From: Bacteroidaceae bacterium
GTDB taxonomy: Bacteria; Bacteroidota; Bacteroidia; Bacteroidales; Bacteroidaceae
Assembly (NCBI GenBank): GCA_017551925.1
Contig: JAFZKA010000099.1
Span: 1 to 41,138, forward strand
DNA: 41,138 nucleotides
Reading direction: 5' to 3'
Below, one piece after another: positions 1-27,584 of this stretch; position 1 is the first letter of the stretch, and each line of letters starts with the position of its first letter. Position numbers and translations under genes: made by a program. The notes under the pieces were generated by a model. The model did no database searches. It was not told the DNA's origin and saw only the letters and a list, made by a program, of their open reading frames with translations.

Positions 1-49
1 GACGGTTCCTTCCGCGGACGTTTTTCAAATGTCCGCGGAAGGAACCGTC
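1..49. repeat. Perfect 19-bp inverted repeat (strong hairpin) after the radical SAM gene
   Basis: Positions 1-19 and 31-49 are perfect reverse complements around an 11-nt spacer, giving a GC-rich stem. It lies 13 nt beyond the stop of the minus-strand radical SAM gene and could end that transcript, but no clean U-tract follows inside the window. The length and perfection of the arms also fit a dispersed palindromic repeat. The element may continue beyond the window edge. Confidence 0.7.
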
Positions 50-62
50 CCTAATGCGTACT

Positions 63-1139
63 TTATGCTTGCTTGAGTTTGAGGTAGTTGCAGGAGAGTA
101 TCTCTCCTTGTGCACCGCGAAGGTGCATGCCGCCGCCCTGGCAGTAGCGCCACACTTTGCAGTCACGGCACTCGCCCGTTTTCATCCATTTACGGTTGCG
201 GTACAACCGGAACCTGTTTTCCCATGCATCCCAAAAGTTATCGGTATGAATGTTCCCCTGATTGTAGTCACTGCGTATGCTGAGACAACCGGAGATAGCT
301 CCGTCATATCGGATTGAGGCAACGGTAAGTCCGGCAACACAGCGGAACAGATGGTCTCGGACAACACCCTCATACGGACCCACAAAACCTTCACATGAAT
401 AGTTCAGTTTGATCCTGCCTTCACGACGTACGGCAGCAATGTAATTCATCAACTGAACGAACTGTTCATTTGAGAGCATCAGTTCATCGTCACCGGCGGC
501 TCGGCCCATAGGTGCTACGGTAAAGATGCGCCACTGACGGACTCCGCGGCTTATAAGATACTCCTTGAACTTATCCAGATAGTCAAAATTGCGCTTGTTG
601 ACGCAGGTAATAAGGTCCCATGTGAGTCCGGGGTGCTCGTTAAACCAGTCTATGGCGGCATCGGCACGTTTGAAACTGAGTTCACTGCCTCGCATCCAGT
701 TGTGTTCCGGCTCAAAGCCGTCAAAACTCATGGCTACGGTATCAAGACCGGTTTTGACCAATTCATCGACCTTTTCACGGGTCAGGAGCATGCCGTTTGT
801 GACCATTCCCCAAAGATAACCGCGCTTTTTTATCTCAGCACCTACCTGTATTATATCAGGACGCACCAATGGCTCTCCGCCTGTGGTAATTATTACGCAA
901 CGGCCACGATCAAAATCCTTGGGGCTGCCGTCAAGTACTCCAAGCAGGTCACTCAACGGAGGATCTGCCATTCCGGCGGTCTTACGGCAGTCACTGCCGC
1001 AATGGCGGCAACTCAGGTTACAGCGCAATGTACACTCCCAGAACAACTGGGTCAGTTTATGCTCCAGTGCCTCTGTCCTAAGAGCGGCTCTGCCGGCCTC
1101 AAGCACAAGTCTTTTTGGAAATGATATTTTACAGTCCAT
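63..1139 (-). CDS. Radical SAM/SPASM domain protein
   Basis: A 358-residue cytoplasmic enzyme expected to cleave S-adenosylmethionine at a [4Fe-4S] cluster and start a radical reaction; its substrate is unknown. The radical SAM motif CNLSCRHC has its cysteines at 40, 44 and 47, and GGEP follows at 87-90. The C-terminal third is SPASM-like, with cysteines at 249, 267, 285, 324, 327, 333 and 350, including CX2CX5C, enough for auxiliary Fe-S clusters. I chose the ATG at 1139 because a longer frame to 1208 would overlap the preceding gene by 65 nt and adds residues unlike the family; with this start the gap to the upstream gene is 4 nt. It is the last gene of a three-gene operon. It resembles the Bacteroidetes rSAM/lipoprotein-system enzymes (TIGR04133 from memory), which would fit the lipoprotein next door. 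The exact subfamily is not certain. Confidence 0.88.
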   Translation of the reverse strand: MDCKISFPKRLVLEAGRAALRTEALEHKLTQLFWECTLRCNLSCRHCGSDCRKTAGMADPPLSDLLGVLDGSPKDFDRGRCVIITTGGEPLVRPDIIQVGAEIKKRGYLWGMVTNGMLLTREKVDELVKTGLDTVAMSFDGFEPEHNWMRGSELSFKRADAAIDWFNEHPGLTWDLITCVNKRNFDYLDKFKEYLISRGVRQWRIFTVAPMGRAAGDDELMLSNEQFVQLMNYIAAVRREGRIKLNYSCEGFVGPYEGVVRDHLFRCVAGLTVASIRYDGAISGCLSIRSDYNQGNIHTDNFWDAWENRFRLYRNRKWMKTGECRDCKVWRYCQGGGMHLRGAQGEILSCNYLKLKQA

Positions 1140-1143
1140 TTTT

Positions 1144-2580
1144 TCAAGGCTTATACTGCACCTGCTCGGGCTGCACATCATTGTAGAACGATGCAGCATC
1201 GCGGGCATTATATATTTCGGGTGTAGTGTAGAGTTCCGGAAGGTTGAATGATTTCAATGTGGTTACGTACCTGTCCGGATCCTTTTGCGGAAGTACAAAA
1301 GGCTTGCCGACATTGCCGTCTGGACCGATATAAGCTATGTACGGACGGCCATATACCAGGTCATCACGCTTTGAGGCGAACACCACCCAACGGCTGTTGC
1401 TGCTCCAACTGTGATAGGTATCGGCACCATAGGCATTTATCTTGGGCAGGACATCTATCTTGCGGGTATGCAGATCAATGAGCCACAACTCACTCTCCTT
1501 GTGCCAGACCGGAAATGTGCCATAACGGGCTGCAGTCGCCATAAGCCAATGGCCGTCAGGTGATGCTTTCAGATGGCTGAATGAAATGTTATCCCCCGCA
1601 CGGACAATGGTAATAGCCCTGTCCCCCATCTTACCGGTTTCAGGATCAAACGATATCACCGCTATGTTGTAATGCATGTCCGATATGCTGTCCGGCTGCT
1701 CATGATGTTCTGCACGGCAAAAGAATATGGTTCTGCCATCGGCTGAGAAGCATGGGAATGTCTCCTGATAATCATCGCCGCTTGTAGCCGGGCTGTCCGT
1801 AACGGTCAGGTTATCAAAATCAAGCACCACCAGGTCACTGCGTTGGTCATATACCTCCATCCTGAGGTCAACCTGGCTGTGAATTGCAAATGTAATATCG
1901 GCTGTAGTGAACACTCCGTAACGGCCGTCGGCCGATATATCACCATACACGGTATTACCTGTCTTTTCAGTTTTGGTGTTCAGTTTTACAAGTTTGCCGT
2001 TACGGTTCAGTATGGTGCCTCCTTTTGCGCCGCGCAGATGCATGAACGATGTTCCGTTACGGTTTGACGTGTGGCAGTTCATGCAGCACATGTCCGCGTT
2101 ACGGTTATCACCCAGCAGAACAGAACTGAAATTCTCCATATCACGCTGCTCAATCTGAATTTCAGACCAGACCTCATATGCGGGTTCTATCAAACGATAA
2201 CTCATGTACCTGTCAATAGAATCCGATGCGACTGTCCACGTAAATGAATCATTGCCCACGGAACGGTCACCTTTAGTCTGCCACTCCACACTTACATTCA
2301 GAGTGTTTCCCTTTTCATTTTCAAGCATTCCATGCCACTTTTTCAACGGGAACCTGACCAGCCCGTTCCGGCCGGCAAACTCATACTCCCCGGCATTGCC
2401 CTTTACGGTGACTTTGATCTTTCGGGCCTGACCCACCCTGAAATTCAGCGGAGCTATATTGCAAGGAACCGTGATGTCCCTGTAATCAGGGAACATTCCG
2501 GTCAGCGTACTGTCAGTACGGTTTGAACAACCGGCCAGCAGCAACAACGTTGAGACTAATATGATAATCCTGCTTTTCAT
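1144..2580 (-). CDS. PD40/TolB-like beta-propeller lipoprotein with a CXXCH motif
   Basis: A 478-residue exported lipoprotein. The signal peptide ends in the lipobox LAGC, with the lipidated cysteine at residue 18, so it is anchored in a membrane and faces the periplasm or outside. Residues 20-130 look like a beta-rich domain. A cysteine pair and the haem c-type motif CMNCH lie at 165-170. Residues from about 200 to the end carry TolB/PD40-like propeller repeats such as ISADGRYGVF, FSADGRTIFF and ASPDGHWLMA. Its start overlaps the stop of the upstream membrane protein by 4 nt (ATGA) and its stop is 4 nt before the radical SAM start, so the three are almost surely co-translated. Whether haem is really attached is an inference from one motif; a metal site or disulfide is the alternative. 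Confidence 0.85.
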   Translation of the reverse strand: MKSRIIILVSTLLLLAGCSNRTDSTLTGMFPDYRDITVPCNIAPLNFRVGQARKIKVTVKGNAGEYEFAGRNGLVRFPLKKWHGMLENEKGNTLNVSVEWQTKGDRSVGNDSFTWTVASDSIDRYMSYRLIEPAYEVWSEIQIEQRDMENFSSVLLGDNRNADMCCMNCHTSNRNGTSFMHLRGAKGGTILNRNGKLVKLNTKTEKTGNTVYGDISADGRYGVFTTADITFAIHSQVDLRMEVYDQRSDLVVLDFDNLTVTDSPATSGDDYQETFPCFSADGRTIFFCRAEHHEQPDSISDMHYNIAVISFDPETGKMGDRAITIVRAGDNISFSHLKASPDGHWLMATAARYGTFPVWHKESELWLIDLHTRKIDVLPKINAYGADTYHSWSSNSRWVVFASKRDDLVYGRPYIAYIGPDGNVGKPFVLPQKDPDRYVTTLKSFNLPELYTTPEIYNARDAASFYNDVQPEQVQYKP

Positions 2581-4340
2581 TGATTCTCTGTATTGTTGTA
2601 TCTCATAACCATTATGAAATGCCAGTATGTTCTCATTGCCTCGGTAGTTATTACACTCTCCGGGCGGGAATCTCCGGCTCTGGCCTCCAAAAGTTGCATG
2701 TACTTGTCATATACCCGTTGAGAGATATGGTATTTCTCAACTGTCTCAATGAGAGATTCCCTTGAATTTACATTTACAAGCAGTGCCTCCTGATAAAGGT
2801 CCGGAACGCTTACAATACGGTCCAACGCATTAAGATAATATCTGTCATAAAGGCTGATGAACGTATTGACGTTCTTGTCCAAAAGGTATGAGCACAAAAG
2901 ATAATCCACCGCCACCCTATTATAAGGCGACTGCGATGCTATTATTGACAATGAAGACCTGATATCCCCCTGTACAAAGAAACGGTCTTCGGGAACTGTC
3001 CTTGAACGCCATTGCAGATACTGCTCCGGAATCTTGTCTGCCGCAATGCAATCCAAAAGATTCTGCGCCCAGTTCCTGTGGTTCCTGGTACGAATAAGGA
3101 TATTCAGATATTTGGTGGCAACGGCGTAATCACCGGTAACAACCGCAATCTCAGCCAACCGCCGCAACATGCGTGTTGAATAGTAGCCGGGCATGACCGT
3201 CTGAGCCAGCAGGGCACAGTCAGTTGCCTGTGACACATCACCCATCTCAAGGAGCGCATCGGTATAATACATCATTGAAAAATACGGGTCCCCCTTAACC
3301 GTTGACAGGAACAGCATATCCGATGATCTGCCCCATCCGCCGTTGTTAAGCAGTTCATCGGCAAGATGACCCTGGCGGGCATTGCAGACATTCCAATAAA
3401 AGATCTTGTAAAAACCCGGTTTATGTGATGAGGCCATCATCTTGACCTCTTTCCATTCATTCCTGTATGCAAGCGTACCTATCTTGACAGTATTTTCCAG
3501 TTCTTCGGCACCAAACGCGGTTGCTGACAAAGGAATACCTGCCACAAACAGTAAAGGCAATATTACATTTTTCCAGCGCTTGTCCATTACCTTGTGATAA
3601 TGCAATGAGAGGATCATAACGGCAAGAATAATCCACGGCATCAGAATCAATAACCACTCAGGCGGATTGATATAACCGGGAGTGACAGGCCAAAGCAGCG
3701 TCTGAAACATTGTGAGATTATATAATCTGCCCAAGACAAGCAGTAACGCCATACCTGCAGCAATTGAAATCATCGGGGAAATTCCATCCCTGCGTTTAAC
3801 AAATGCAAGCAGCAGCGCCGCTGTAATGGCATGACCACCCGCTATCACAAACAGTGCAGGAACAGCGATTCCATATATCAGATAACTGAACTTTGAATTC
3901 TTGAGATGCGCCAGTGCACAGGCTGACCAAATCGACAAGGTCAATCCTACAGTGGCCGATACGGGATAATTTGGAAAAGTAATGAAATATCCCTCAAACA
4001 GGACCGGAACTGCTGACAATATCAGGCATACAGGCCTGTCAGGTTCAGCAAGTCTGAAGAATCTGGCCAGAGCGGCCATGATTAATGCAAAAAGAAAAAC
4101 GCTCAACGTTGCCGCCAATGTACTGTTGACATAGAATTGAGTTAACCAGTCTCCTGCAATTGACGCGAATAAGGCAGGATTGGAGAGATACCAGTTGATT
4201 CTGTCAGCACCAAACAGAAAAATGCTGACCTGTTCCTTGAAATCCAAACGGTAAGGCGCCTTTGAAAAAAGCAGTATCCATGATACGAATAATACACCTG
4301 CCGCAAAGAAAAAATCCTCACTCCTGTTTTTTCTGCCCAT
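2577..4340 (-). CDS. Polytopic membrane protein with C-terminal helical-repeat domain (DUF6057-like)
   Basis: A 587-residue protein of unknown function. The N-terminal half (about residues 10-270) has roughly nine hydrophobic segments. The rest, from about 280, is soluble and rich in paired helices like degenerate TPRs, for example the stretch around ALLEMGDVSQATDCALLAQT. It resembles Bacteroidetes proteins grouped as DUF6057 (from memory). It is the first gene of the operon and its stop overlaps the start of the CXXCH lipoprotein by 4 nt. An in-frame ATG exists at 4364, but a TAAGTTTG -7 box covers 4362-4369, so transcription would start downstream of that codon. I therefore use the ATG at 4340 (MGRKNRSED). 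Confidence 0.8.
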   Translation of the reverse strand: MGRKNRSEDFFFAAGVLFVSWILLFSKAPYRLDFKEQVSIFLFGADRINWYLSNPALFASIAGDWLTQFYVNSTLAATLSVFLFALIMAALARFFRLAEPDRPVCLILSAVPVLFEGYFITFPNYPVSATVGLTLSIWSACALAHLKNSKFSYLIYGIAVPALFVIAGGHAITAALLLAFVKRRDGISPMISIAAGMALLLVLGRLYNLTMFQTLLWPVTPGYINPPEWLLILMPWIILAVMILSLHYHKVMDKRWKNVILPLLFVAGIPLSATAFGAEELENTVKIGTLAYRNEWKEVKMMASSHKPGFYKIFYWNVCNARQGHLADELLNNGGWGRSSDMLFLSTVKGDPYFSMMYYTDALLEMGDVSQATDCALLAQTVMPGYYSTRMLRRLAEIAVVTGDYAVATKYLNILIRTRNHRNWAQNLLDCIAADKIPEQYLQWRSRTVPEDRFFVQGDIRSSLSIIASQSPYNRVAVDYLLCSYLLDKNVNTFISLYDRYYLNALDRIVSVPDLYQEALLVNVNSRESLIETVEKYHISQRVYDKYMQLLEARAGDSRPESVITTEAMRTYWHFIMVMRYNNTENQ

Positions 4341-4361: not shown

Positions 4362-4369
4362 CAAACTTA
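4362..4369 (-). promoter_or_regulatory. Bacteroidetes -7 box (TAAGTTTG) for the membrane protein/lipoprotein/rSAM operon
   Basis: The minus strand reads TAAGTTTG, matching TAnnTTTG. No convincing -33 TTTG sits 19-21 nt upstream. It places the transcript start near 4355 and supports the downstream start codon at 4340. Confidence 0.5.
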
Positions 4370-4438: not shown

Positions 4439-5116
4439 ATGGCAGGAAAACTCTATCTGGTACCCACTCCGGTGGGAAATCTTGAGGACATCACCTTGAG
4501 GGCATTACGCATCCTTAAGGAGGTGGACCTTATTCTGGCCGAAGATACCCGTACCAGTTCAGTTCTGCTCAAGCATTATGACATACATAAGCCCCTGCAG
4601 TCACACCACAAGTTCAATGAGCATGAAACATCGGCCCAGATGGCGGCAAGAATCCAGGCAGGTGAGTCGGTTGCACTTATCAGCGACGCCGGTACTCCGG
4701 GCATATCGGACCCTGGATTTATGCTGGTGCGTGAGTGCGTACAGCAGGGTATCGATGTTGAGTGCCTGCCCGGTGCTACTGCTTTTGTACCCGCTCTGAT
4801 TGACTCCGGACTGCCATGTGACAGGTTCCTCTTTGAGGGTTTCCTGCCACAGAAAAAAGGCCGCCAGACGCGCATCAACGCATTAAAGGATGAGCCCAGA
4901 ACCATAGTGTTCTACGAGTCACCATTCCGTCTGGTCAAAGCGCTGGAGCAGTTCATCGAGGCCTATGGTCCCGACCGCCCGGTAGCCGTGTGCCGCGAGA
5001 TTTCCAAGATCCACGAGGAGTGCGTACGTGGCACCCTCACAGAGGTTCTTGCCCATTTCAAGCAAAAAGAGCCCAAAGGAGAAATTGTAATAGTATTAGG
5101 AGGAGCCAACAGCTAA
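4439..5116 (+). CDS. rsmI: 16S rRNA (cytidine-1402-2'-O)-methyltransferase RsmI
   Basis: A 225-residue SAM-dependent methyltransferase that modifies the ribose of C1402 in 16S rRNA, at the decoding centre. The tetrapyrrole-methylase fold is recognisable from LYLVPTPVGNLEDITLRA at the N-terminus, LAEDTRTS near residue 40, and SDAGTPGISDPG near residue 82. The C-terminal part carries the family's FYESPFR. The open frame extends 30 codons upstream, but those residues are not family-like and the ATG at 4439 follows a promoter box. Length is normal for the short Bacteroidetes form. Its TAA stop lies inside an AGCCAAY heptamer array that separates it from hflX, probably co-transcribed. Confidence 0.95.
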   Translation: MAGKLYLVPTPVGNLEDITLRALRILKEVDLILAEDTRTSSVLLKHYDIHKPLQSHHKFNEHETSAQMAARIQAGESVALISDAGTPGISDPGFMLVRECVQQGIDVECLPGATAFVPALIDSGLPCDRFLFEGFLPQKKGRQTRINALKDEPRTIVFYESPFRLVKALEQFIEAYGPDRPVAVCREISKIHEECVRGTLTEVLAHFKQKEPKGEIVIVLGGANS

Positions 5117-5138
5117 TAGCCAATAGCCAACAGCCAAG
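5104..5138 (+). repeat. Heptanucleotide tandem repeat, 5 units (AGCCAAC/AGCTAAT type)
   Basis: Five 7-bp units run end to end: AGCCAAC, AGCTAAT, AGCCAAT, AGCCAAC, AGCCAAG. The array overlaps the last codons of rsmI, and the TAA stop at 5114-5116 is part of the second unit. It ends 2 nt before the hflX ATG. Related arrays occur at 8175-8209 and 27529-27584. Confidence 0.9.
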
Positions 5139-8174: not shown

Positions 8175-8209
8175 AGCTAACAGCCAACAGCCAACAGCCA
8201 ACAGCCAAT
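8175..8209 (+). repeat. Heptanucleotide tandem repeat, 5 units, running into the holB start
   Basis: One AGCTAAC unit is followed by three AGCCAAC units and one AGCCAAT. The final AT together with the following G forms the ATG start codon of holB at 8208-8210, so the array is the whole immediate 5' leader and leaves no room for a Shine-Dalgarno sequence. Confidence 0.9.
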
Positions 8210-27528: not shown

Positions 27529-27584
27529 AGCCAACAGCCAATAGCCAACAGCCAATAGCCAATAGCCAATAGCCAACAGCCAAA
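27529..27584 (-). repeat. Heptanucleotide tandem repeat, 8 units (AGCCAAC/AGCCAAT)
   Basis: Eight 7-bp units fill the space between the acyltransferase-like stop (27586) and parE (start 27485). On the plus strand they read AGCCAAC or AGCCAAT, ending AGCCAAA; relative to the neighbouring genes they lie in reverse (GTTGGCT), the opposite orientation from the arrays at 5104 and 8175. Confidence 0.92.

Follow-up and report, generated by a model that had tools for sequence, protein, structure and literature searches.

A Bacteroidaceae locus combines a DUF6057/CXXCH lipoprotein pair with an independent TIGR04133 radical SAM enzyme whose probable substrates include proteins encoded on other contigs

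Contig JAFZKA010000099.1 of the Bacteroidaceae bacterium assembly GCA_017551925.1 (41,138 nucleotides (nt), analysed whole and referred to here as the window) carries near one end three minus-strand genes, which encode a DUF6057 membrane protein, an exported propeller lipoprotein with a CXXCH motif, and a radical SAM (rSAM)/SPASM enzyme of family TIGR04133. An earlier, sequence-only reading had treated these genes as one joint system; the three-gene observation was correct, but the interpretation was not, and the locus is composed of two independent modules, namely the DUF6057/lipoprotein pair and the radical SAM enzyme. DUF6057 was found in all 38 surveyed genomes carrying the lipoprotein, and 119 of 130 propeller lipoproteins adjoin it, making the two a stable, conserved Bacteroidales envelope pair; the enzyme gene, in contrast, lies in only 4 of the 80 named lipoprotein loci. 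Since the modules also occur apart near the same gene in relatives, the data do not support the enzyme as a fixed third member. We give just short of an even chance to the reading that the enzyme acts on dispersed exported proteins with a YG(x)1-3P motif by splicease-type chemistry. The features concerned are as follows.

2577..4340, minus strand: DUF6057 membrane protein, 587 amino acids (aa), with a multi-helix membrane domain and C-terminal TPR-like repeats
1144..2580, minus strand: exported propeller lipoprotein, 478 aa; N-terminal domain plus TolB-like propeller
2071..2085, minus strand: CMNCH motif, lipoprotein residues 166-170, CXXCH in homologues
1342..1356, minus strand: VYGRP in the propeller, residues 409-413, similar to the partner motif but not taken as a substrate site
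63..1139, minus strand: TIGR04133 radical SAM/SPASM enzyme, 358 aa, with an ATG start at 1139
4439..5116, plus strand: divergent gene, presumably rsmI-like from its sequence resemblance, marking the site where modules come and go in relatives

The arrangement and most of the family assignments of the sequence-only reading were borne out. The stop of the DUF6057 gene and the start of the lipoprotein gene overlap by 4 nt (2577-2580), and a 4-nt gap separates the lipoprotein gene from the radical SAM gene. The membrane protein, described earlier as DUF6057-like, is in fact a true, full-length member of Pfam DUF6057 (PF19529; 303.8 bits vs a gathering cut-off of 29.8), and the many membrane helices and helical-repeat tail ascribed to it are consistent with its AlphaFold model. 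The lipoprotein has a lipobox cysteine (Cys18) and the CMNCH motif ahead of PD40 repeats, and the CXXCH was conserved in 130 of 130 propeller lipoproteins and in 40 of 40 members of a separate homologue set. The enzyme scored 491 bits against TIGR04133 (rSAM_w_lipo; curated cut-off 425), matched both Pfam Radical_SAM and SPASM, and contained every invariant cysteine of a 20-row enzyme alignment.

Scores above the TIGR04133 cut-off were found in 14 of the 61 genomes surveyed in the family, 22 of 37 in the genus and 52 of 247 in the order. The enzyme is usually accompanied by a small exported protein encoded directly upstream. Among the matches listed, 66 enzyme loci were examined (L001-L014, L039-L060 and L189-L218); the enzyme start was abutted by a small or medium open reading frame (ORF) in 56 loci, by the propeller gene in four (the window, L043, L046 and L049) and by no ORF in six, two of which sit at contig edges. 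A count of three-residue gapped patterns, made without presupposing a motif, placed YGxP first in the abutting ORFs (47 of 56 vs 0.4 in shuffles), and the window's genus supplied 18 of these 47 and other taxa 29. Among the nine abutting ORFs lacking YGxP, that of L208 is cut by the contig start, and in L196, L211 and L218 a YGxP ORF stands farther upstream; the other five are those of L011, L012, L045, L198 and L210. As for the loci with no abutting ORF, a YGxP ORF sits just beyond the distance limits used in L003 and L007, two occur on the opposite side in L006, and a YGxP protein is encoded downstream in L215. At L004, L006, L191, L204, L209, L214 and L218, at least two tandem YGxP small lipoprotein ORFs stand beside one TIGR04133 enzyme.

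The window enzyme is a member of the TIGR04133/TIGR04134 rSAM/lipoprotein system, in which a gene for a small lipoprotein normally stands right before that of the enzyme, but it differs in missing that cis partner: the propeller gene abuts the enzyme, and no small partner lipoprotein is present directly upstream. The earlier statement that there is no room for a precursor therefore holds for the window, but relatives carry a precursor-like lipoprotein of about 100-150 aa at this position (in G024, another genome of the genus, the propeller and enzyme genes are separated by one for a 132-aa lipoprotein containing VIYGTPE), and the window genome (G000) has candidate substrates on other contigs. 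The genus also differs from the usual system in having several candidate substrates with a KGW signal peptide per genome. TIGR04134 was above cut-off in 2 of 10 proteins scanned and failed to recognise three genus partners and one in-trans candidate. In the literature searched, no product is assigned to rSAM/lipoprotein families, though NCBIfam names exist.

A search of the window genome with the G024 partner returned weak matches sharing its N-terminus (E 0.001 to 0.1), which gave the following in-trans candidates.

Contig C120: 183 aa, MYGVQPP
Contig C111: 96 aa, MYGVQMP
Contig C111: 295 aa, MYGPWPP
Contig C87: 125 aa, MYGPPP
Contig C117: 228 aa, MYGPIP

In the shared N-terminus, basic residues precede an (S/A)KGW that opens the signal peptide, and Trp is the sole invariant column of the 15-row alignment. 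When profile hits to this N-terminus were counted at E up to 3.5e-8 (the search's own limit being 0.01), they were present in all 22 genus genomes that have the enzyme vs 4 of the 15 that lack it (7 of 15 at 0.01). Hits away from the enzyme gene were found in 18 of 22 vs 4 of 15 genomes (p 0.0017; mean 2.9 vs 0.27 hits), in 18 of 22 vs 7 of 15 at 0.01 (p 0.036), and in 16 of 20 vs 4 of 15 when G000 and G061, which donated such rows to the profile, were excluded (p 0.0024). Among the eight genomes at least 90% complete, all five that have the enzyme gave hits, and none of the three that lack it did. Each of the five genomes with a partnerless enzyme also had hits (G000, five; G078, two; G082, six; G091, five; G094, two).

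Past the first 30 residues, YG(x)1-3P occurred in 45 of 54 shared-N-terminus proteins, drawn from 44 chosen loci and including many orthologues, vs 24 of a background of 457 further ORFs (80-330 aa; partner-like ORFs had been taken out of three background loci), and the residue before Tyr was Met in 28 of the 45 and Ala in 17. The motif had been widened to this form after near-misses had been seen; the narrower YG(x)1-2P occurred in 35 of 54 vs 16 of 457. Four loci were fetched from enzyme-lacking genomes: the proteins of L269, L271 and L272 (the last cut by the contig end) lacked the motif, and L270 had one protein with it and one without. These data demonstrate the motif, its linkage to the enzyme gene and its co-occurrence with the enzyme in the genus, and the YGxP/KGW exported proteins are probably the substrates of the enzyme. 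The in-trans KGW/MYG proteins (L062, L064 and L070; contigs C111, C117 and C120) differ in their C-terminal parts, and several end in a stretch resembling a TonB plug box; in L083, a similar protein lies beside an enzyme fragment and has weak SusC-signature matches, below cut-offs.

In the proposed mechanism, the TIGR04133 enzyme would act in the cytoplasm on exported proteins with the common N-terminal signal-peptide motif, and the modification site would be [M/A/V/I/L]YG(x)1-3P. The window genome lacks the upstream partner, which leaves at least five proteins from other contigs as its candidate substrates. The chemistry, proposed less firmly than the substrate step, would be of splicease type, that is, tyramine excision, in which a piece is cut from the protein backbone. 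Since the motif is similar to the XYG splice site at which PlpXY spliceases act, tyramine excision is the favoured, though unproved, chemistry. After TIGR04133, the NCBIfam model closest to the window enzyme and to those of L003 and L214 is TIGR04103 (nif11-class maturase 3), taken here as the PlpX family; this does not hold for the other 8 of the 11 enzymes scanned, and the window enzyme falls far under the TIGR04103 cut-off (118.9 bits vs 725). Because the nearest-model result is mixed across enzymes, the sequence relationship is neutral on a splicease, and it is the motif that favours tyramine excision. The PlpXY splicease removes tyramine at X-Tyr-Gly (MYG and LYG in nature) and can act without the leader, and its published tags contain LYGLP and GYGVVFP (PMC10533398); both of these sequences fit YG(x)1-3P, with a Pro soon after X-Tyr-Gly. 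PlpX is a SPASM enzyme of IPR026482 (PMC11002830). The two systems are alike in their SPASM radical SAM enzyme and in the X-Tyr-Gly motif of the partner proteins; they differ in that PlpXY substrates are Nif11/nitrile-hydratase leader peptides, whereas the candidates here are exported (lipo)proteins. No PlpY-type RRE gene was noticed in the locus maps, on which no RRE model was run.

The strongest competing explanation keeps the same YGxP exported substrates and assigns the enzyme a different chemistry, such as a Tyr cross-link, epimerisation, decarboxylation or Calpha cleavage, and we regard it as a substantial minority possibility. TIGR04133 enzymes score about equally with several models for enzymes of other chemistry (AhbD, NirJ2 and MftC), and the Pro conserved here 1-3 residues after the Gly is not known to be needed by PlpXY. 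However, an X-Tyr-Gly core in which Met or Ala often precedes the Tyr suits tyramine excision, and the tolerance of Gly after YG (YGGP in L010, L214 and L218) would argue against a three-residue cyclophane at those sites.

Alpha-keto-beta-amino residues are reactive, protease-inhibitor-like groups. A broader proposal, which we put forward only tentatively, is that a splicease-type enzyme of gut Bacteroidales introduces such residues into exported proteins and lipoproteins, and that in genomes like those of the window's genus one enzyme serves a dispersed set of KGW and [MA]YG(x)1-3P proteins, as a general protein modification rather than as the route to one natural product. Having a probable substrate motif that resembles an established splice site narrows an open genomic pattern to one mass-spectrometry test; if the proposal is true, protein backbone editing would be part of Bacteroidales envelope biology, and one enzyme would serve many unlinked substrates. 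The finding extends a known, functionally unassigned kind of rSAM/lipoprotein system, the probable dispersed substrate set being of greater interest than the three-gene reading.

A single three-gene system, with the CXXCH lipoprotein or a small molecule as the enzyme's substrate and the membrane protein as the user of what is made, is very unlikely, even though the genes are tightly spaced in the window, the enzyme directly follows the propeller gene in four loci, and the propeller contains VYGRP. The expectation that the three genes would stay together held for the DUF6057/lipoprotein pair but not for the enzyme; the expected conservation of the CXXCH was borne out. Near the same rsmI-like gene, relatives show all four genes (e.g. 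L031, L078 and L080-L082), the partner and enzyme without DUF6057/propeller (L072, L073 and L085), DUF6057/propeller and the enzyme without the partner (L066, L067 and L069, as in the window), or DUF6057/propeller without the enzyme (L076), and in L068 the enzyme stands alone at another site. The propeller VYGRP is no evidence that the lipoprotein itself is the substrate, since YG[RK]P is found in many propellers of loci without the enzyme (e.g. L112, L114, L115 and L116); the propeller YG[RK]P also borders a predicted strand (412-418).

The cis partner is absent in separate lineages. On the enzyme tree, in which 7 of 20 inner branches are starred, the state with a propeller and no partner needs three changes even when only starred branches are trusted, and these three label changes could reflect a single gain plus two losses. 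The partnerless relative G082 (L066) showed no small YGxP ORF among the ORFs mapped downstream of its enzyme. It is very unlikely that the window enzyme is a leftover whose partner was lost and whose gene is decaying: the partner gene is absent in the window and three relatives, but the enzyme keeps the conserved cysteines, an open frame with its 491-bit score, and 80-89 percent identity to the L031, L066 and L068 enzymes, and all five partnerless genomes retain in-trans candidates.

With regard to the envelope pair, the DUF6057 protein (with its GT-C-like domain and TPR tail) may work together with the TolB-like lipoprotein, which may in turn bear one c-type haem. Glu36 of DUF6057, right after the first helix, is invariant across 70 alignment rows. 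The AlphaFold model has a weak likeness to GT-C glycosyltransferases, with a Z low for a helical protein and no sequence match, and the protein differs from Pmt1, oligosaccharyltransferases and AftD in its C-terminal TPR-like repeats. Pfam gives DUF6057 no function; the CXXCH-propeller pairing and the weakly GT-C-like model are added here, and the strict pairing is a first context for a multicopy Bacteroidales family without known function. The lipoprotein is alike in fold to TolB propellers (16.8 bits against TIGR02800, cut-off 343) but differs as a lipoprotein with an invariant CXXCH. In several Prevotella-like records (L140, L145, L153, L154, L159 and others), two DUF6057/propeller pairs are convergent, and some of these records then have a further copy beside a protein of about 200 aa. 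In L076 (7689-7713), from the enzyme-lacking genus member G050, the two genes of the DUF6057/propeller pair are themselves convergent and overlapping, unlike other mapped genus loci, where they share a strand.

The CXXCH of the lipoprotein lies within an exported protein, as expected of a c-type cytochrome, and resembles a c-type haem site, so that haem is plausible. ResB was present in 35 of 38 lipoprotein-positive vs 16 of 23 negative genomes (p 0.03, without correction for relatedness), and a search for PF01578 covered 16 genomes, among which the window genome has both domains and G042 has PF01578 without ResB. Weighing against haem, cytochrome c maturation genes were not found in every lipoprotein genome: in those 16, G040 and G045 lack both ResB and PF01578, and G012 lacks PF01578. 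The CXXCH is kept in the lipoproteins of G012 (L100) and G040 (L096) despite the missing maturation genes.

Two further features flank the three genes.

4362..4369, minus strand: TAnnTTTG (-7) box-like sequence upstream of DUF6057
1..49, no strand: palindrome belonging to a genome-wide repeat, where the contig ends

A single -7 box had been placed ahead of the genes. The box is present (4369-4362, 22 nt upstream of the DUF6057 start), but TAnnTTTG is no commoner in the window than expected by chance (20 vs 22.3), so the box is weak evidence; the longest open frame of DUF6057 begins at TTG 4364. The window is an entire contig of a 127-contig assembly and stops 62 bases past the radical SAM stop codon, inside the genome-wide repeat, so the downstream flank of that gene is missing. 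The palindrome arm TGTCCGCGGAAGGAACCGTCC occurs at 49 places in the genome at up to 2 mismatches, both arms counted (reversed control, 0). Elsewhere in the window, intergenic tandem heptamer arrays (AGCCAAY)n lie at 5104-5137, 8175-8208 and 27529-27583, all in one orientation, with 15 overlapping matches vs 0.12 expected.
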